A DNA stretch of 64,000 nucleotides from NCBI GenBank assembly GCA_018057825.1, contig JAGPCY010000026.1, positions 62,001-126,000 on the forward strand, written 5' to 3'. The notes beneath the pieces were generated by a model that saw only the letters and a program-made list of their open reading frames with translations, was not told the origin of the DNA and searched no databases. The translations under genes and the position numbers were made by a program. Numbering within the stretch: the stretch's first letter is position 1; each line of letters opens with the position of its first letter. Shown here piece by piece: positions 29,449-38,427 of the stretch. Source of the stretch: Kofleriaceae bacterium. GTDB taxonomy: Bacteria > Myxococcota_A > Polyangia > Haliangiales > Haliangiaceae.

Positions 29449-30282
29449 TCAGGCGGCCGCCGCCAGCGGTACCCGCGCCTCCACCGGCAGGAGCGGCTGG
29501 ACGCCGCTCGCCCACCGCCGGCAGCAGTCGAGGCCCTCGAGGCCGGGCAAGGTCCCCATGCGCTCGTCGATGTGATCCATGACCGCGAACAGCTCCTGGC
29601 CGGGGAAGATGCGCGCGATCATCTCGGCGTGCTCGGCCGGTGACTTCACGCCTGAGCCGACTGGGTTCCAGTTGCGGTCGAAGATCGTCCGCACTAGGCG
29701 CTGCGCGACCGGCTGACCGTCGAGGCGCTCGCGGGCCGCGGTGAAGTAGTAGGCGAAGTGGCGGCGCTCCTGCTTGTTGATGCGCCGGGCCAGCTCGCGC
29801 AGGACCGGGTTGGCGGTGTCGCGACCGAGGTGCTCGTAGGCCTGGCAGGTCAGGAGCTCCTGGGCCGCGCCCCACGCCATCCACAGCGCGACGAAGCTGC
29901 GCGGCATCGCCTTGGCCAAGGTCATCTGGACGAGATCCTCGAGGCGCGCGCGCAGCCGCGCCCGCGACCGCAGGTTGGTCGCGCGCGACATCGGCGGCGG
30001 CACCTCGCAGCCACACTCGCGCAAGAGGCGCGAGATCGCGTGGGAGTGGAAGTACTCCTCGTAGTTCCACATCGTCAGGAAGGTGAGCAGGTCGGGGTCG
30101 CGCGCGACCTCGAGCTTCACCACCTCGAGCATGTAGAACACCGTCTGGCTCTCGATGTCGGCGAAGAACTGCAGGTTCTTCACCTCGCGCTCGGTGAGGC
30201 CGGCGGCGCGCGCGGCGTCCCAATCGAGGTCGTCGTACGCCACCTTCTGCGACGCGGACAGGTGCTGCTGGATATCGGGCAC
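29449..30282 (-). CDS. Ferritin-like diiron protein, acyl-ACP desaturase-like
   Basis: The 277-residue soluble helical protein has two diiron half-sites: DIESQTVFY then NYEEYFHSH (E, ExxH), and TCQAYEHLGR then INKQERRHFAYYF (E, ExxH). This ligand order fits acyl-ACP desaturase or other ferritin-like oxidases. The GTG start at 30282 has a GAGGA about seven bases upstream. Desaturation of an acyl chain is possible, but the family also contains enzymes with other substrates, such as N-oxygenases. The gene diverges from a signalling/biosynthesis operon across a 386-base gap and is convergent with the U32 gene. Confidence 0.78.
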   Translation of the reverse strand: MPDIQQHLSASQKVAYDDLDWDAARAAGLTEREVKNLQFFADIESQTVFYMLEVVKLEVARDPDLLTFLTMWNYEEYFHSHAISRLLRECGCEVPPPMSRATNLRSRARLRARLEDLVQMTLAKAMPRSFVALWMAWGAAQELLTCQAYEHLGRDTANPVLRELARRINKQERRHFAYYFTAARERLDGQPVAQRLVRTIFDRNWNPVGSGVKSPAEHAEMIARIFPGQELFAVMDHIDERMGTLPGLEGLDCCRRWASGVQPLLPVEARVPLAAAA

Positions 30283-30668
30283 GTGGTTCCTCGCGAAGCG
30301 GCGGGCGGCCGAAGCAGCCTCCCGGGGGGCGTCTGCTTACCACACGCTCGCCTTGGCACTACGCGCGGCCGTCGCTCACGGATCGAACGCCGGGTGGCGA
30401 CCGCGCGGCGGCTCCGATCGACGTCAACGGACAGACCATCCGACCTCAGATGCCCGAGGCGAAACCGTTGGCCTCCCGCACAGAGGGGTGTCGCACCGCG
30501 CCTGGGCTTCGGGAATTTCGCCGTCGACGATGTCCGACTTTTCCCTATCACCCTACCCGGGTGATTGTGAGAACGCGAACCCCATGCTTAACGTGGTCCC
30601 GAGCGTCGGCGGACTAAACTCCCATTCCCGTTTGACACGACCCCCGAAGCGCCGTTATTGAGAAAAAC
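30283..30668. other. 386-base divergent intergenic region
   Basis: It lies between the diiron protein gene and the HTH-receiver operon. GC is visibly lower than in the coding sequence, with A/T-rich stretches near 30520-30560 and 30600-30668. I see no supportable ORF or RNA gene. It should contain promoters for both directions; only the one at 30632-30661 is recognisable. Confidence 0.6.
30632..30661 (+). promoter_or_regulatory. Candidate promoter of the HTH-receiver/TPP/KAS/HK operon
   Basis: TTGACA (30632-30637, perfect -35) is followed after 18 bases by TATTGA (30656-30661), a weak -10. Transcription would begin close to 30668, almost at the GTG start at 30669, so the message would be nearly leaderless. 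The AT-richness after it (GAGAAAAAC) could alternatively be a weak ribosome site for a longer transcript. Confidence 0.4.
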
Positions 30669-31268
30669 GTGATCCCGGAAACCATCGCTCCCGACTCTCT
30701 GCTCACGTCCACCCAAGTCGGAAACCTGCTTCAGGTTAACCCGAGTTCGGTCAAGAAGTGGGTCAACGACGGCCACATCATCGCGTTTCGTACCCCCGGG
30801 GGGCATCGCCGCATCCGCGCGCTCGATCTCGTCGCCTTTCTCGACCATCACAAGATCCCGGTGCCGCGTCAGCTCGCCGACGCCGGCAAGCGCCGGATCG
30901 TCTGCGTCGATGACGACGTCGCGCAGCTCCGGGCGCTCGGCCGGTCGCTCAAGCGCTGGGCCGACAAGCTCGACGTGATCCTGGTCGACAACGGCGTCGA
31001 CGCGCTCCTCGAGGTCGGCGCCCAGCGCCCGCACGGCCTCTTGATCGACGTCTTCCTGCCGGGGATCGACGGCATCGAAGTCTGCCGCCGCCTCAAGGCC
31101 AACGCCGCCACCAAGGACCTGGCGATCATCGTCACCAGTGGCCGGCTCACCAGCGACCTCGAGAGTTCTGCCAAGAACGCCGGGGCGCGCCGCGTCCTTC
31201 GCAAGCCGGTCGACGTCACGGCCGTCGTGGAGGAGCTCGGGCTGGCATCGCCCCACCTGAGCAGATAG
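30669..31268 (+). CDS. Excisionase-type HTH fused to receiver domain
   Basis: The 199-residue protein has an N-terminal MerR/excisionase-like helix-turn-helix (LLTSTQVGNLLQVNPSSVKKWVNDGHIIAFRTPGGHRRI, about 11-49). A linker leads to a complete receiver domain: RRIVCVDDD, LLIDVFLPGIDG with phospho-Asp about residue 140, VTSG and VLRKPVD. It is a response regulator with the DNA-binding part at the N-terminus rather than the usual C-terminus. It probably controls its own operon, receiving phosphate from the kinases encoded 3-6 kb downstream. The start is GTG at 30669. Confidence 0.88.
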   Translation: MIPETIAPDSLLTSTQVGNLLQVNPSSVKKWVNDGHIIAFRTPGGHRRIRALDLVAFLDHHKIPVPRQLADAGKRRIVCVDDDVAQLRALGRSLKRWADKLDVILVDNGVDALLEVGAQRPHGLLIDVFLPGIDGIEVCRRLKANAATKDLAIIVTSGRLTSDLESSAKNAGARRVLRKPVDVTAVVEELGLASPHLSR

Positions 31269-31275
31269 GACCCCA

Positions 31276-32988
31276 TTGTCGAGCGACCTCCCAGCACCCA
31301 TCACCCCTGCGCTCCCCAGTTCGCCGACCGGCGAGCGCCGCACCGCGGACGTGCTGATCGAGGTCCTCGCTACTGCCGGGGTCGAGCTGGTTTTCGGGCT
31401 CCCAGGCGGACCGATCTCTCCGATCCATGATGCGCTCCTCGGGGAGCCGCGCATCCGCCACATCACCACGCGCCACGAGAGCGGCGCGCTGTTCGCCGCC
31501 GCAGGCTACGCCCACGCCACTGGCCGACTGGGCGTCGCCGCGGTGACCTCGGGTCCCGGCATCCTGAACGCGATGACCGGGTTGGCGTCGGCCCACTGCG
31601 ACGGCCTGCCGGTGTTGCTCCTGGTCGGCGAGGTCGCGCGCAAGGTCCACGGCCGGGGCGCCCTGCAAGACGGCTCGAGCCACGGGCTCAACGTCGTCGG
31701 GATGACCCGCCACGTCACCAAGCTCGCGGTCGAGCTGACCGAGCCGGCCAACGCGCCCCTGGTCCTGCACCGAGCGATCGCCACCGCGATGTCGGGCCGG
31801 CGCGGCCCGGTGGTCGTGACCATCCCGATGGACGTGGCCACCGCCCTGGCGCCGGCGCCGCGGATCAGCGCCGAGGTCAGCCTGGAGTTCGCCTTGGCGC
31901 CCGCCGCCCTCGATGAGATCTCGGCGCTGATCGCGCTGGCGGCCCGGCCGATGATCCTGGCGGGCTCGGGCTGTCGCGGCCAGGGCGCGCCGGCCCGGCT
32001 GCGCGCCGTCGCCGAGCGCTACCAGTGCCCGGTCGCGACCACGCCCAAGGCCAAGGGCGTGTTCCCCGAGGACCATCCGCTGTCGCTCGGGGTGTTCGGC
32101 CTGGGCGGCCACCCGTCGGCGCGGGCCTACGGCGAGCGCGGCATCGACGTGATGGTCGCGCTCGGCACCAGCCTGGGCGACGTCGCCACCGAGGGCTGGA
32201 GCCCGCTTCTGCGCGGTCGCCGGGCCTTCATCCACGTCGACATCGACGCCCAGCAGATCGGCCGCAGCTACCAGCCGACCCACGCGCTGGTGGCGCCGGC
32301 GGCGGCGTTTCTGGGCGAGCTGCAGACGCGCTTCCCGCTGCAGACCCCGCGGCTGGTCGGCGATGGCGTGACCCGCTATACCCTGCCGTCGAGCCCGATC
32401 GATCGGCTGAGCCCGCAGACCGCGGTCGCCGAGATCCAGGCGGTCTTGCCGCGCGACACGATCTACACCGTCGACTCCGGCAACCACTTCCTGTTCGCGA
32501 CCCACTACCTCGAGCTGACCTACCCCGATTCGTTCATCGTGATGACCGGGCTGGGCTCGATGGGGCAGTCGATCGGCGGCGCGATCGGCGCCAAGCTGGC
32601 TCGGCCGCAGCGCTCGGTCGCGGCGATCTGCGGCGACGGCTGCTTCGCGATGAACGGCTTCGAGATCGCGACCGCCGCCGCCGAGCGGATCCCGATGGTC
32701 TTGTTCGTCTTCAACGACCAGCGCCTGGGCATGGTCGAGCACGGCCACGCCGCGGTCTACGGCCGCGACGCGGCCTATCCGATCGCGATGGACGTCGGCA
32801 ACCTGGCCCGCGGCCTGGGCGCCGAGTTCGCGCGGGCCGAGCGGCCGACCGACATCCTGGCGCTGCGCGAGCGCATCGCGCAGCTCACCGGACCGCTGGT
32901 CGTCGACGTCCTGATCGATCCCGATGTGCGCATGCCGACCCGCGATCGCCTGGTCACGATGGACTCGTCGAAGAAGCGGATGAACTAG
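31276..32988 (+). CDS. TPP-dependent enzyme, acetolactate-synthase-like large subunit
   Basis: This is a 570-residue protein. TTG at 31276 is the likely start, with AGGA five bases upstream. The pyrimidine-binding domain holds the catalytic Glu in RHESGALFAAAGYA, then SGPGILNAMTGLASAHCDGLPVLL. The central domain follows (about 200-330). The C-terminal TPP domain carries GDGCFAMNGFEIATAAAERIPMVLFVFND (GDG...N metal motif). No small regulatory subunit (ilvN/H) is adjacent, which argues against branched-chain amino acid synthesis and for a specialised acyloin or decarboxylation reaction. It is followed after three bases by a KAS III-like gene, so the two probably act in sequence on one small molecule. 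Confidence 0.88.
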   Translation: MSSDLPAPITPALPSSPTGERRTADVLIEVLATAGVELVFGLPGGPISPIHDALLGEPRIRHITTRHESGALFAAAGYAHATGRLGVAAVTSGPGILNAMTGLASAHCDGLPVLLLVGEVARKVHGRGALQDGSSHGLNVVGMTRHVTKLAVELTEPANAPLVLHRAIATAMSGRRGPVVVTIPMDVATALAPAPRISAEVSLEFALAPAALDEISALIALAARPMILAGSGCRGQGAPARLRAVAERYQCPVATTPKAKGVFPEDHPLSLGVFGLGGHPSARAYGERGIDVMVALGTSLGDVATEGWSPLLRGRRAFIHVDIDAQQIGRSYQPTHALVAPAAAFLGELQTRFPLQTPRLVGDGVTRYTLPSSPIDRLSPQTAVAEIQAVLPRDTIYTVDSGNHFLFATHYLELTYPDSFIVMTGLGSMGQSIGGAIGAKLARPQRSVAAICGDGCFAMNGFEIATAAAERIPMVLFVFNDQRLGMVEHGHAAVYGRDAAYPIAMDVGNLARGLGAEFARAERPTDILALRERIAQLTGPLVVDVLIDPDVRMPTRDRLVTMDSSKKRMN

Positions 32989-32991
32989 CGC

Positions 32992-34062
32992 ATGACCGCC
33001 GTCGGCATCCTCGGCCTGGGTACGTTCCTGCCACCGACCGTGCGGGGCAACGACTGGTGGCCGGCGGCGCAGGTCGCCCGCTGGGGCGAGCGGATGGCCC
33101 ACCGCGCCACCCGCGCCGCCGACGACGCGGCCCTGGCGCCGGCGGCCCAGCGGACCTTGGCGGCGCTCGCGCGCTACGTCGACGATCCGTTCCGCGGCGC
33201 GGTCACGCGCCGGGTCATGACCCCGCCGATGACCACCACCGACATGGAGGCCGCGGCCGCCGAACAGGCCCTGGCGGCGGCCGCCGTCGACCGCAGTACG
33301 ATCGACGCGGTGCTGACCCAGACCCCCGTGCCGGAGCGGCTGATGGTGAACGAGGCCAGCCCGCTCCACCATCGGCTCGGCCTGGCCCGCCGCTGTCTGG
33401 CGTTCGGCACCGAGGCGGCCTGCAACGGCTTCGCGGTCCACGCCGAGCTGGCCCACGCGCTGATCGCCAGCGGTCAGGCGCGAACCGTGCTGAGCGTGCA
33501 TTCGTCGGCGATCACCCGGGTCCACACCGATGAGGAGCCGCACTCGGCGTGGTGGGGCGACGGCGCCGCCGCGGTCGTGTGGGGGCCGGTCAGCGCCGGT
33601 CGCGGCCTCTTGGCGCGCGAGCACTACGTCGATGGTGGCACCTGCGACGCCCTGGTCCTCGGGGTCCCCGGCCAGGCCTGGTGGGAGCCCGGCCCGGTCA
33701 CCACCCACTCGGTCGACCGCGACCACACCCGCCAGATGCTCCTGTCCCTGGTCGAGCGCGCCGGCGACACCATCGCCGCAGCGCTGCGCCAGGCCGGGCT
33801 GACCGCCGATCAGGTCGGCTTCTTCGCCGCCCACCAAGGCACGGCGTGGCTCGCCGATGCCTGTCGCGAACAGGCCGGTCTGACCGCGGCCGCCACCGTG
33901 GTCACCTTTCCCGAGACCGCCAACATGAACAGCGTGAACATTCCCTATGTGCTCGACCGCGGCGTTCGCGCCGGCGCCCTGACCGACGGCACCGCGGTGG
34001 TCACGTTCGGCGGCGGGCTCGGCGAGACCTGGTCGGCCACCGTGCTGCGCTGGGGCCGATGA
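32992..34062 (+). CDS. 3-oxoacyl-ACP synthase III-like (KAS III) enzyme
   Basis: The 356-residue thiolase-fold condensing enzyme carries the expected triad: Cys in GTEAACNGFAVHAELA (about residue 142), His in FFAAHQGTAWLAD (FabH HQAN equivalent, about 283), and Asn in ANMNSVNIPYVL. The closing phrase VVTFGGGLGETWSATVL is typical of FabH. It departs from housekeeping FabH around the His motif (HQGT in place of HQAN), and no other fatty-acid genes are adjacent, so a specialised acyl transfer or condensation is likely. Its ATG is three bases after the TPP enzyme stop, and its TGA overlaps the histidine kinase ATG. Confidence 0.88.
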   Translation: MTAVGILGLGTFLPPTVRGNDWWPAAQVARWGERMAHRATRAADDAALAPAAQRTLAALARYVDDPFRGAVTRRVMTPPMTTTDMEAAAAEQALAAAAVDRSTIDAVLTQTPVPERLMVNEASPLHHRLGLARRCLAFGTEAACNGFAVHAELAHALIASGQARTVLSVHSSAITRVHTDEEPHSAWWGDGAAAVVWGPVSAGRGLLAREHYVDGGTCDALVLGVPGQAWWEPGPVTTHSVDRDHTRQMLLSLVERAGDTIAAALRQAGLTADQVGFFAAHQGTAWLADACREQAGLTAAATVVTFPETANMNSVNIPYVLDRGVRAGALTDGTAVVTFGGGLGETWSATVLRWGR

Positions 34063-37000
34063 CCACCACTACCGCGAAGCGGCCCGACGCCAAGGTGGTG
34101 TCGTGCCGGTTCTTCGAGACCCTGCTGCGCGATCTGCGCGAGCGCGGCCAGGATCCGGCGCGGCTGGTGGCCGGGACTACCTGCACGCTGGCCACCCTGG
34201 CCGACAAGGACGAGCGGATCGACTGGCCGACCTTCCTCGCCCTCATGGCCAACGGCCGGCAGTTCTGGACCGACGCCGATCTGGTCCGCCTGGGCGAGCG
34301 CTCGACCGACAGCCCGTTCGTCCGCTTCATCGGCGTGGTCGCGCGGCTGCGATTCTCGGTCCCCGAGTTCTACCAGTGGGTCGCCGGCCCCAAGGGCATG
34401 GCCAGCCAGATGTTCTCGTGCCTCGAGACCAGCTGCGCGATCGACGGCCCCAACCAGGTCACGATCGAGCTGCGCATGTTGCCCGGGCTCGCGCCGAGCC
34501 GCGAGCTGTGGCTGGTCTCCGAGGGCACCTACGCCGCGATGCCGACCATGCTGGGCGCGCCGCCGGCGGCGACCAGCGCGACCTACGGCGCAACCTCGGT
34601 CCGCTACCGGGTGGTGTTCCGCGAGCCGGCCGGCCTCCTGGCGCGCGGGCGACGGGCGCTGCTCTGGCCGTTCACCATGCGGCAGGCCGCCGAGGAGCTG
34701 ACCAACGCCCACGCCACCCTGCTCGAGCGCTACCACCAGCTCGATCGCGCGCGCGCCGAGCTGGCCCGCGAGTCGCGCAAGCAGCGCGTCGCCAACCACA
34801 TCGCCAACCTGGCGCTCGGCACCTTGGCCCCGGAGGCGACGATGGGCGCGGTGTGCGCGGCGATGATCGAGCAGGTCGGCTGCGTGGCCGCCGAGATCCA
34901 GCTCGACCGCGGCGCCGTGGTGCGCCACGACGTCGGCGAGGCCAGCAGCGCGCGCCGCCGGTTCGCGTTGACCAGCGGCGCGCTCGCGCTCGGCCACCTC
35001 GAGGTCACCCTGCCGCCGGCCGCCGACGACCAGCTCGCGCTGGTCGAGAGCGTGGTCCCGACCATCGCGCTGGTGGTGCAGAAGGCCCTCGATCAGCAGG
35101 CCCTGACCGAGTACCGCCAGCGCCTCGAGCAGCGAGTCGCGGACCGCACCGCCGAGCTGACCCGGGCCCGCGACGAGCTGGCGGCCACGGTGACCCGCCT
35201 CGAGGAGACCAAGGCCTCGCGCGAGCGGCTGTTCCACAACATCAGCCACGAGATCCGCACGCCGCTGTCCTTGGTCTTGCTCTTGGTCGACGGCGTCCTC
35301 ACCCACCACGGCGGCGAGCTGACCGGTCGCGCGGTGGCGCAGATGCACGCGATCACCATCAGCACGCGCAAGCTGGTGCGGCTGGTCGACGAGCTGCTCC
35401 TCCTGGCCTCGGGCGAGGAGCGCGACCTCCAGGTCACCCCGGAGCCGATCGATCTCGCCGCGGTCTTGCCCGAGCTCCTGGCCGGCTGGGTGCTGGCGGC
35501 CGAAGACGCCGGCCTGACCTTGACGACGATCTGTCCACCCGAGGCGGTGGTGCTGGCCGATCCGGTGGCCCTCGAGCGCGTGCTGGCCAACCTGTTGTCG
35601 AACGCGATCAAGTTCACGCCGCGCGGTGGCCAGGTCGCGGTCGCGGTCGAGGCGGGACCGACGACGACCCGGATCGCGGTGCGCGACAGCGGCATCGGCA
35701 TCGACGACGAGCTGCGCGGCCGCCTGTTCGGTCGGTTCGAACAAGGCGCCGGCGGCAAGCGCCTGCGCGCCGGCAGCGGCATCGGCCTGTCGATCGCGCG
35801 CGAGCTGGTGCGGGCCCACGGCGGCGAGCTGGACGCCGCCGCCAACCGCGATGGCCCCGGCTCGACCTTCGCCTTCACCTTGGCCACGTCGTCGGTCGAG
35901 CTGGCCCGGCAGGTCGCCCCCGGCAGCCTCCGTCCGACCGACTACGGGGTCGGCGCCGGCCCCAGCCTGGGCACGGTGTCGCCGCCCGGCCTGTCCCGGG
36001 GCCACATCCTGGTCGCCGAGGACGACCCCGGCCTGGCCGCCGCGATCGGCCAGCTCCTGTCCGACGAGTACACCGTGCAGCTCGCGTCCGACGGCGCCGA
36101 GGCCCTGGCGGCCGCGCAGCGCCGCCTGCCGGACCTGCTCATCACCGACATCGAGATGCCCCAGATCGACGGCCTCGAGCTCGCCCGCCAGCTCCAATCC
36201 TTGCCTGGCGAGACTCCGACGCCGGTCCTGGTGATGTCGGCCCGGGCCAAGCTGGGCGACCGCCTGGCCGGGTTCTCGGCGGGCGCCGTCGACTACGTCA
36301 TCAAGCCCTTCGACCCGTCGGAGCTGCGGGCCCGGGTCCGGGCCCAGCTCGCCTACCGGACCCTGGCGCTCCGGCTGCAACGGTCGGAGAAGCTGGCCGC
36401 CCTGGGGACGTTGTCGGCCGGCCTGGCCCACGAGCTGCGCAACCCGGCCAACGGCATCGTCAACGCGATCGCGCCGCTGCGCGAGCTCCTGCCTGCCGAG
36501 GCGCTGGCCCCCGACACCGGGGTCGGCGAGCTGCTCGACGTGATGCAGCAATGCGCCGAGCAGGTCGCGTACGTGTCGCGCCAGCTCCTGGGGTTCCGGC
36601 GCTCGGGCGACCTCGAGCTGCGGCGGGTGCCGATCGGCGAGGTCCTGACCCGGGCGCTGTCGAACGCCTCGGCGGCCCTGGCCGAGGTCGAGCTGCGGAC
36701 TCGGTACGCCTACCAGGGCCTCTTGCGGTGCGCCGCGCCGCTTTTGACCCAGGTCCTGGTCAACCTGATCGAGAACGCCGCCCAGGCCGCCGGCCCCGGC
36801 GGCTGGGTCGAGCTGGCCACCCGCGGCGACGACCAGGTGGTGGCGATCGAGCTGACCGACAGCGGGCCGGGGGTACCGGAGCACCTGACCGAGCGGGTCT
36901 TCGAGCCGTTCTTCACCACCAAGCCGCCTGGCCAGGGCACCGGGCTCGGTCTGGCGACAGCGCGTGACCTCATCTTGCGCCATGGCGGTACACTGGAGCT

Positions 37001-37067
37001 GCGATCGCGCTCCGGACGTACCGTCTTCGTGATCGAGCTGCCGCAAGCTCCCGAGGTTCGACCATGA
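34059..37067 (+). CDS. Two-module hybrid histidine kinase with AraC-like sensor domain
   Basis: The protein is about 1002 residues with no transmembrane span. Residues 1-175 resemble the N-terminal ligand-binding domain of AraC-type regulators (ARLVAGTTCTLATLADKDERIDWPTFLALM, later YQWVAGPKGM). A GAF-like part (about 250-345) and a coiled coil follow. Kinase module 1 has the H-box FHNISHEIRTPL (His about 397) and ATP-binding GSGIGLSIAREL. A receiver has LLITDIEMPQIDG (Asp about 696) and YVIKPFD. Kinase module 2 has GLAHELRNPANGI (His about 790) and GTGLGLATAR. Two kinases around one receiver suggests an internal relay. ATG 34059 overlaps the KAS III stop, so sensor and enzymes are made together. 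Confidence 0.92.
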   Translation: MTTTTAKRPDAKVVSCRFFETLLRDLRERGQDPARLVAGTTCTLATLADKDERIDWPTFLALMANGRQFWTDADLVRLGERSTDSPFVRFIGVVARLRFSVPEFYQWVAGPKGMASQMFSCLETSCAIDGPNQVTIELRMLPGLAPSRELWLVSEGTYAAMPTMLGAPPAATSATYGATSVRYRVVFREPAGLLARGRRALLWPFTMRQAAEELTNAHATLLERYHQLDRARAELARESRKQRVANHIANLALGTLAPEATMGAVCAAMIEQVGCVAAEIQLDRGAVVRHDVGEASSARRRFALTSGALALGHLEVTLPPAADDQLALVESVVPTIALVVQKALDQQALTEYRQRLEQRVADRTAELTRARDELAATVTRLEETKASRERLFHNISHEIRTPLSLVLLLVDGVLTHHGGELTGRAVAQMHAITISTRKLVRLVDELLLLASGEERDLQVTPEPIDLAAVLPELLAGWVLAAEDAGLTLTTICPPEAVVLADPVALERVLANLLSNAIKFTPRGGQVAVAVEAGPTTTRIAVRDSGIGIDDELRGRLFGRFEQGAGGKRLRAGSGIGLSIARELVRAHGGELDAAANRDGPGSTFAFTLATSSVELARQVAPGSLRPTDYGVGAGPSLGTVSPPGLSRGHILVAEDDPGLAAAIGQLLSDEYTVQLASDGAEALAAAQRRLPDLLITDIEMPQIDGLELARQLQSLPGETPTPVLVMSARAKLGDRLAGFSAGAVDYVIKPFDPSELRARVRAQLAYRTLALRLQRSEKLAALGTLSAGLAHELRNPANGIVNAIAPLRELLPAEALAPDTGVGELLDVMQQCAEQVAYVSRQLLGFRRSGDLELRRVPIGEVLTRALSNASAALAEVELRTRYAYQGLLRCAAPLLTQVLVNLIENAAQAAGPGGWVELATRGDDQVVAIELTDSGPGVPEHLTERVFEPFFTTKPPGQGTGLGLATARDLILRHGGTLELRSRSGRTVFVIELPQAPEVRP

Positions 37068-38239
37068 CCCCGCCCCCCGACCCGACCGGCCCGCTGGTGC
37101 TGTACGTCGACGACGAGCGCGCCAACCGCGTGGTGTTCGACAAGTCGTTCGCCAACCGGTTCCGCATCAAGACCGCCTCGGATGGCGCCGAGGCCCTCGA
37201 GGTGCTCCGGCAAGAGCCGGTGGCGGTGCTCTTGACCGACCAGCGCATGCCCGGGATGTCGGGCGACGAGCTCCTGCGGATCGTCAAGCGCGATCACCCC
37301 GAGGTCGTCCGGGTGGTGATCACGGCGTACTCCGACATCGAGCCGATCCTGGCGGCGATCAACGAGGGGCTGGTCGCCCGCTACATCGTCAAGCCGTGGA
37401 ACCGCGAGGAGCTCGATCAGCTCCTGCGCTGGGCGATCGCGGCCTGGCAGTTCTCGCGCGACTCATCGGCGTTGCAGCACCGCCTCCTCGAGACTGAGCG
37501 CTTAGCCACCCTGGGCAGCATCGTCGGCGCGGTGGTCCACGACCTCAACCAGCCCGTGGCCGGCATGGTCATGAACTGCGAGCGCCTGGCCTACCTGGTG
37601 CAGGCCCTGCCGGTGATCACCCAGATCGCGGCCACCGCCGATCTGTCGGCCAAGGAGCGGAGCCTGATCGAGCACCTGACGTCCGAGCTGCCGGAGATCG
37701 TCGAGGATCTGCAGATGTCGGCGGCCCACATGCGGGGCATGACGCAGGACCTCCACGCCTTCTTGCGCGGCACCCGCCGCGAGGCCGACGTCGCGACCCC
37801 GCCGGTGCCGATCATCCGCCACGCCCTGGGCGTGTGCCAGGAGGTGGCGATCCGGGCCCGCGGCCTCCTCCGCTACGACGGCCCCGACACCTTGCCGGCG
37901 GTGCGGATGAGCTCGACCGAGCTGACCCAGGTGCTGATCAACGTCGTGACCAACGCCGCGCAGTCGCTGGGCGCCAAGAGCGCCGGCGAGGGCAACGTCG
38001 TCGTGCGCGCCGAGTCGGTGGCCGGGCAGATCGCCTTCACCGTGACCGACAATGGGCCCGGGATCCCGCCCGAGGTGCTGGCCAAGATCGGTACGCCGTT
38101 CTTCACCACCAAGGACAAGGGCACCGGGCTCGGCATCGCCCAGTGCCAGCGCCTGGTCGGAAAGGCCGGCGGTCAGTTCCGGATCGCGTCCGAGCCGGGC
38201 AAGGGGACGACGGTCAGCTTCTCGATCCCGGTGCGGTAG
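37064..38239 (+). CDS. Receiver-histidine kinase protein
   Basis: This 391-residue protein has an N-terminal receiver (LVLYVDDERANRVVFDK, LLTDQRMPGMSGDELL with Asp about 58, VITAYSD, YIVKPWN). A histidine kinase follows: H-box LGSIVGAVVHDLNQPVAG (His about 158), N-box VLINVVTNAAQSL, then DNGPGIPP and GTGLGIAQCQ. It is cytosolic. The ATG at 37064 overlaps the hybrid kinase stop. The receiver may take phosphate from the hybrid kinase and gate this kinase, which could in turn phosphorylate the HTH-receiver protein encoded first in the operon. This wiring is inferred. It is the last gene of the operon and a hexamer array follows at once. Confidence 0.92.
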   Translation: MTPPPDPTGPLVLYVDDERANRVVFDKSFANRFRIKTASDGAEALEVLRQEPVAVLLTDQRMPGMSGDELLRIVKRDHPEVVRVVITAYSDIEPILAAINEGLVARYIVKPWNREELDQLLRWAIAAWQFSRDSSALQHRLLETERLATLGSIVGAVVHDLNQPVAGMVMNCERLAYLVQALPVITQIAATADLSAKERSLIEHLTSELPEIVEDLQMSAAHMRGMTQDLHAFLRGTRREADVATPPVPIIRHALGVCQEVAIRARGLLRYDGPDTLPAVRMSSTELTQVLINVVTNAAQSLGAKSAGEGNVVVRAESVAGQIAFTVTDNGPGIPPEVLAKIGTPFFTTKDKGTGLGIAQCQRLVGKAGGQFRIASEPGKGTTVSFSIPVR

Positions 38240-38241
38240 GG

Positions 38242-38427
38242 CCGAGGCGGAGACGGAGACCGAGGCGGAGGCCGAGGCCGAGGCGGAGGCCGAGACCGAG
38301 GCGGAGGCGGAGGCGGAGACCGAGGCGGAGACTGAGGCGGAGACCGAGACCGAGACCGAGGCGGAGACCGAGACCGAGGCCGAGACCGAGACCGAGACCG
38401 AGGCCGAGGCAGAGGCGGAGGCGGTCG
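38242..38427. repeat. Hexamer array (GAGGCG/GAGACC)n
   Basis: About 31 units of GAGGCC, GAGGCG or GAGACC begin two bases after the receiver-kinase stop codon. The plus strand is purine-rich. Read in the +1 frame relative to the kinase it would encode Glu-Ala/Glu-Thr repeats ending in AVDR and stop, but no start codon is available. Unlike the other three arrays it lies between codirectional genes. Confidence 0.95.

Follow-up and report, generated by a model that had tools for sequence, protein, structure and literature searches.

The closest described counterparts of the operon reported here, a five-gene locus at positions 30669–38239 (+ strand) of a 64,000-nucleotide stretch of Kofleriaceae bacterium DNA (hereafter the window; contig C19:62001–126000 of a genome of 8.9 Mb, 73% G+C and 99.7% completeness), are the α-hydroxyketone quorum sensing systems LqsA-LqsS-LqsR of Legionella and CqsA-CqsS of Vibrio (PMC3376566). 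As in these systems, in which the kinase senses a diffusible α-hydroxyketone, the synthase is encoded in one locus with a sensor histidine kinase and a regulator of the receiver type, an association that is conserved here, and the product probably also belongs to the α-hydroxyketones. The Lqs/Cqs synthase depends on pyridoxal phosphate (PLP), whereas here Pfam found only domains of a thiamine diphosphate (ThDP) enzyme and of β-ketoacyl-acyl carrier protein synthase III (KASIII); the sensor has six transmembrane segments there and is soluble here; and the present operon contains two kinases with three HisKA modules and a helix-turn-helix (HTH) receiver protein as output. Because the tests for a PLP-dependent synthase and a six-transmembrane sensor failed, the operon is not a member of the Lqs/Cqs group, though its logic is alike. 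A preliminary description of the window had already set its chemistry apart from that of acyl-homoserine lactone, Lqs/Cqs and diffusible signal factor (DSF) systems, and the domain content agrees with this.

The pairing of ThDP and KASIII-like enzymes is in itself known chemistry. It occurs in carbazole biosynthesis (CqsB3-CqsB1 and NzsH-NzsJ), and homologous carbazole-type clusters are present in Sorangium (reviewed in PMC7466098). The two enzymes lie together in these clusters as they do here (31276–34062); the carbazole step differs in including a CqsB2/NzsI cyclase and an acyl carrier protein, and no kinases are mentioned for it. Its ThDP enzyme takes indole-3-pyruvate and pyruvate. We found no cyclase of the CqsB2/NzsI type in the operon or among its nearest neighbours (a U32 peptidase, an unassigned gene, a glycosyltransferase and a DegT aminotransferase). 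KASIII-like acylating ketosynthases also act in the xenocyloin pathway of Xenorhabdus, and a ketosynthase makes the signal molecule of PpyS photopyrone signalling (both treated in PMC4578411). The latter system resembles the scheme proposed below in having a ketosynthase-made signal and differs from it in that it is not known to involve a ThDP enzyme or kinases. Photopyrones and like signals are sensed by LuxR-type regulators. In the xenocyloin pathway the ThDP enzyme XclA reportedly forms an acyloin, which then undergoes KASIII-like acylation, the same order of steps as we propose here; we know of no two-component genes in that pathway.

A five-gene operon conserved in five families of Polyangia

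The five codirectional genes, the gaps of 7 and 3 bp and the two ATGA overlaps given in the preliminary description were all confirmed from the sequence (+7, +3, −4 and −4 bp, in gene order), and Pfam supported the domains it had named, apart from the N-terminus of the hybrid kinase (see below). Third-position G+C was strong, as in real genes, in all five; the gene starts are those predicted. The first gene (30669–31268, +, GTG start) encodes a response regulator of 199 aa with an HTH_17 domain (BldC/excisionase-like; 2.4e-9) and a receiver (Response_reg, 1.9e-17; phospho-acceptor D127). It is followed by genes of a ThDP-dependent carboligase-like enzyme (31276–32988, +, TTG start; 570 aa, three TPP_enzyme Pfam domains), a KASIII-like acyl-condensing enzyme (32992–34062, +; 356 aa, ACP_syn_III and ACP_syn_III_C), a hybrid kinase (34059–37067, +; 1002 aa) and a receiver-histidine kinase (37064–38239, +; 391 aa, D59 and H159; Response_reg 8.7e-20, HATPase_c 9.7e-26).

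The same gene order was found in at least 16 genomes from five families (f1, f3, f14, f21 and f22, the last three added by a second neighbourhood set) of one myxobacterial class, Polyangia, and persists down to about 44% identity. The class includes Plesiocystis pacifica, a match of the class search (G119:C220:136741-137796) having the same position as that of record G319 (L041). The order is kept down to 43–52% identity in the neighbourhoods of relatives, with 40–60% identity in the other families. Complete runs are present in the window and at loci L025, L026, L028, L029, L030, L031, L034, L035, L038, L155, L158, L161, L164, L165 and L166; the run of L162 is intact up to the contig end, and L040 (WYAZ01000108, Deltaproteobacteria bacterium PRO2) carries the first four genes. 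A scan of genome contigs with a ThDP profile detected the operon only in L040, the other matches looking like general ThDP enzymes. All 7 genomes of the window's genus carry the operon, two of them in pieces. Genomes G001 and G005 have it in part (L216, L210, L242) and are absent from the KASIII search results because of contig breaks, which are common to most of the relatives, apparently draft assemblies.

KASIII orthologues were detected in 16 of 56 relatives at a threshold of E 1e-40. When the search was extended to 318 genomes of the class, matches were sporadic (83 genomes, even at a loose cut-off), and in a phylum-wide sample a comparable KASIII was present in only two genomes outside the class, in one of which (L211) a sensor kinase adjoins the KASIII-bearing locus. 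The hybrid kinase gene lies directly downstream in about 23 of the 30 genomes with a close KASIII, so that in most cases the enzyme and kinase genes have stayed together. Where the contig extends far enough, almost all relatives retain the ThDP-KASIII pair. Spread by plasmids was considered and rejected, a plasmid search having given only distant KASIII homologues (at most 31% identity among the best matches listed).

The hybrid kinase and its sensor domain

The hybrid kinase consists of an N-terminal sensor, an unassigned GAF-like linker, a HisKA/HATPase module (H397), a receiver (D697) and a further HisKA/HATPase module (H791), the three residues being invariant across 12 orthologues. This refines the hybrid kinase of the preliminary description: two kinase modules flank the single receiver (HK-REC-HK). 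A hydrophobicity scan revealed no clear transmembrane segment in any of the five operon proteins; the best 19-residue stretch of the hybrid kinase (residues 326–344) reached 1.69, and none was strong in the sensor region, in agreement with the cytosolic location originally proposed.

The sensor domain (34092–34757, +) appears to be a distant relative of Arabinose_bd (PF12625). The AraC-type N-terminus of the preliminary description is a borderline case: the window protein itself has no Pfam match, while 3 of 16 orthologues match PF12625, with a best E of 6e-4. A profile search of the Protein Data Bank (PDB) with this domain gave no match, and its single-sequence AlphaFold model was poor (pLDDT 42).

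A profile of the domain (A4, the first ~220 residues of the hybrid kinase) was searched over the same class as KASIII. Among the 23 matches at E<=1e-76, 22 directly adjoin a KASIII gene, and the remaining one lies on a small contig of G001 beside a cytochrome P450 gene (L210). Weaker matches revealed a ThDP enzyme with a sensor kinase and without KASIII (L202, L203), a fusion of a receiver (REC) with the ThDP enzyme together with both kinases and an unrelated gene replacing KASIII (L204), and sensor genes that diverge from, or converge with, a neighbouring ThDP gene (L208, L209, L211, L163). Through these different layouts it is the ThDP enzyme that stays with the sensor domain. Still weaker matches are scattered over the class and may be solo sensors.

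The two enzymes

The ThDP enzyme has E68, a GDG motif at D454, and G490. In a profile search of the PDB its nearest solved relatives were BbmA (8x3x, 1.4e-142) and CsmA (8x3z, 1.2e-112), both ahead of acetolactate synthases (1.9e-104), although the sequence similarity is only moderate. It shares with them a glycine at the specificity position of acetolactate synthases: G490, the position mutated in BbmA-G484F, is invariant in 13/13 ThDP enzymes of such cassettes, while acetolactate synthases have a specificity residue at the matching position. The enzyme scored 338 bits on the NCBIfam acetolactate synthase model (acolac_lg, TIGR00118), below the cut-off of 538, and ketol-acid reductoisomerase (ilvC) had no match in the 99.7% complete genome, while control genomes were positive in 14 of 14 cases. 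For these two reasons we rejected a role as the branched-chain acetolactate synthase of amino acid synthesis; had it been the organism's only acetolactate synthase, this would have spoken against the cassette suggested in the preliminary description. The same genome encodes a second ThDP enzyme (L121, C55:3177-4760), which is likewise below the cut-off of this model (334.6 bits).

At four loci (L031, L033, L034 and L038) the ThDP enzyme carries an N-terminal receiver, fused in frame and lacking an HTH domain; to our knowledge, this architecture has no precedent in the literature. The fusion ties the phosphorelay physically to the synthase, and because of it the relay probably controls the enzyme directly in these relatives.

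The KASIII-like protein of the window retains the complete catalytic triad (C144, H281, N311) and falls far below the cut-off of the fabH family model (121 vs 292 bits). At L204 its place between the REC-ThDP fusion and the hybrid kinase is taken by a protein of 324 aa that belongs to no known family (L204:4288-5259, −). Comparison ruled out that it is a decayed KASIII, and neither Pfam nor the PDB supported a cyclase like that of carbazole synthesis.

A palindrome upstream of the operon and of lipoprotein genes

An exact palindrome, TCACCCTAnnCGGGTGA, with half-sites ATCACCC and GGGTGAT around a TACCC centre, is located upstream of the first gene (30547–30565) and is a probable operator. It lies 111–121 bp before the GTG of the HTH-receiver gene in the window, L026, L028 and L029, and occupies the same place in L216 (G001) and L242 (G005), i.e. 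in 6 of the 7 genus members, the copy of L025 being degenerate. The DNA around it has diverged among these genomes. The window's genome contains three exact copies, and a control with the reversed pattern gave no match in 7 genomes with one mismatch allowed. The two other copies precede, by ~100–127 bp, genes of large surface lipoproteins, one of 1583 aa with Big_9/Cadherin/DUF4215 repeats and one of ~1025 aa with weak Ig-like matches. Its position suggests that the HTH-receiver protein binds this palindrome; the candidate site would be ATCACCCTACCCGGGTGAT, and the candidate targets would be the operon itself and two genes (G000 C12:127511 and C19:50523). Several copies with one mismatch in the genus likewise precede lipoprotein-like genes, which is only suggestive. 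No such palindrome was found in the relatives with the REC-ThDP fusion.

The palindrome lies between the operon and a divergent, unassigned gene of 277 aa (29449–30282, −), and could serve either. Near one of the palindrome copies, ~14–18 kb upstream of the window start on contig C19, there is a CRISPR-like array (L244:45-4690) in which a 36-bp repeat, GTCACCGCCGCCATCGAGCGGCGGCCCCGTTGAAGC, alternates with changing spacers over ~60 units.

A sigma-70-like promoter (TTGACA-17 bp-TTATTG; 30632–30660, +) was read by eye from the sequence, and genus members have TTGACM and −10-like sequences similarly placed. Because a strict consensus promoter scan did not call it, we treat it as putative; transcription would then be expected to start no more than a few bases from the GTG, giving a nearly leaderless transcript. 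Position 30632, given earlier as the start of the region, corresponds to the TTGACA of this element; the first gene begins at 30669.

The operon is flanked upstream by genes of an H+-pyrophosphatase, the U32 peptidase and the unassigned protein, and downstream by those of the glycosyltransferase and the DegT-type aminotransferase. The gap directly 3' of its last gene (38240–38422) is occupied by a 24-bp/6-bp tandem repeat, GAGACCGAGGCCGAGGCGGAGACC, in ~7 copies, and no terminator was found in it on the + strand.

Discussion

We consider it somewhat probable that the operon forms an autoregulated synthesis-and-sensing module. In this scheme, the ThDP enzyme would condense a 2-oxo acid with a second one, or with another carbonyl compound, to an α-hydroxy-keto product, and the KASIII-like protein would acylate or further condense it to a small molecule of the α-hydroxyketone or diketone type. 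The soluble hybrid kinase may sense this product or a derivative inside the cell through its N-terminal domain and, together with the receiver-kinase, feed a phosphorelay with three HisKA modules that ends at the HTH protein's receiver. The HTH protein would bind the palindrome copies before the operon and before the two surface lipoprotein genes, by which production of the molecule could be adjusted together with the cell-surface output; in the fusion-bearing relatives the relay may act on the synthase through the fused receiver. That the molecule also passes between cells is, in our view, somewhat less likely than not.

Several observations weigh against the module. Ten relatives (L031, L033, L034, L035, L037, L038, L040, L151, L152, L153) have Gly, Ala, Ser or Gln where KASIII should carry its catalytic cysteine, and the asparagine of the triad is replaced in even more. 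Since the cysteine has been lost in these lineages, an acyl-enzyme mechanism cannot be general and the role of KASIII is not uniform; there the protein may be a partner that has no catalytic activity or catalyses in another way. ThDP-KASIII pairs without kinases (L153, L157, L160) are nested among operon-bearing clades, agreement between the trees of the two enzymes is only moderate (distance r ~0.5), and outside the genus the palindrome is not conserved, except for one variant in L035. In addition, P450 genes are inserted in L031, L033, L035, L210 and L242, and an O-methyltransferase gene (Methyltransf_2) in L033, which also fits an antibiotic or pigment pathway; owing to these insertions, the product is probably modified differently by species. 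The self-contained cassette of the preliminary description is consequently upheld in part: the linkage to the kinases is kept and the enzyme is not an acetolactate synthase, while the loss of the cysteine and the kinase-free pairs tell against it.

The chief rival of the synthesis-and-sensing module is a pathway-specifically regulated natural-product operon, whose bioactive metabolite (a pigment, antibiotic or predation compound) would not be a signal, the kinases switching production on when they perceive a precursor or a cue from outside. The inserted tailoring genes and the kinase-free pairs agree with it, as does the fact that known ThDP-KASIII pairs produce carbazoles (PMC7466098). However, the operon of the window has no tailoring enzyme or exporter and yet keeps two kinases and a regulator, the sensor domain follows the ThDP gene through rearrangements, and lipoprotein genes, too, are preceded by the putative operator. 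An autoregulated operon of this type is unlikely in our view, though a serious contender because of the cysteine loss in operon-keeping lineages and the kinase-free pairs. A phosphorelay that senses a central metabolite and controls the activity of enzymes supplying a membrane lipid or a branched-chain starter appears improbable. The REC-ThDP fusion does imply post-translational control in some relatives, and both enzymes border primary metabolism; against this, the genome has neither ilvC nor an acetolactate synthase above the cut-off, the KASIII-like protein is remote from fabH with a catalytic cysteine that is dispensable in relatives, and the locus is sporadic in the class. Myxobacterial genomes abound in two-component genes, and the kinases of the window are typical members by Pfam, so that an enzyme operon and a two-component operon could have come to lie side by side by chance. 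This was rejected as practically inconceivable, because the gene order is conserved in other families at the identities given above; the ATGA-type overlaps, the receiver-enzyme fusion and the adjacency of nearly all close sensor domains to KASIII also oppose it.

In its widest form, the synthesis-and-sensing module would represent a new class of cell-cell signalling in Polyangia, with an acyloin-type autoinducer made by ThDP and KASIII enzymes, a cytosolic hybrid kinase with a new AraC-like ligand domain, and an HTH-receiver controlling the operon and surface lipoproteins, the relay acting on the fused synthase in some relatives. We advance this only tentatively. No prior description of such a system, including ThDP-made signals, was found in the literature searched (open-licence papers).

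If true, the signalling system proposed here would add a further enzymatic route, through ThDP and KASIII enzymes, to hydroxyketone-type signals, and the REC-ThDP fusion would be an unusual instance in which a phosphorelay controls an enzyme of biosynthesis, here a carboligase. Diffusible signals are hardly known from the Polyangia, which have large genomes and are social, predatory and rich in natural products. With a synthase, a sensor and a regulator in one conserved locus, and with a candidate operator and two candidate targets, the question of signalling in this class becomes directly testable.

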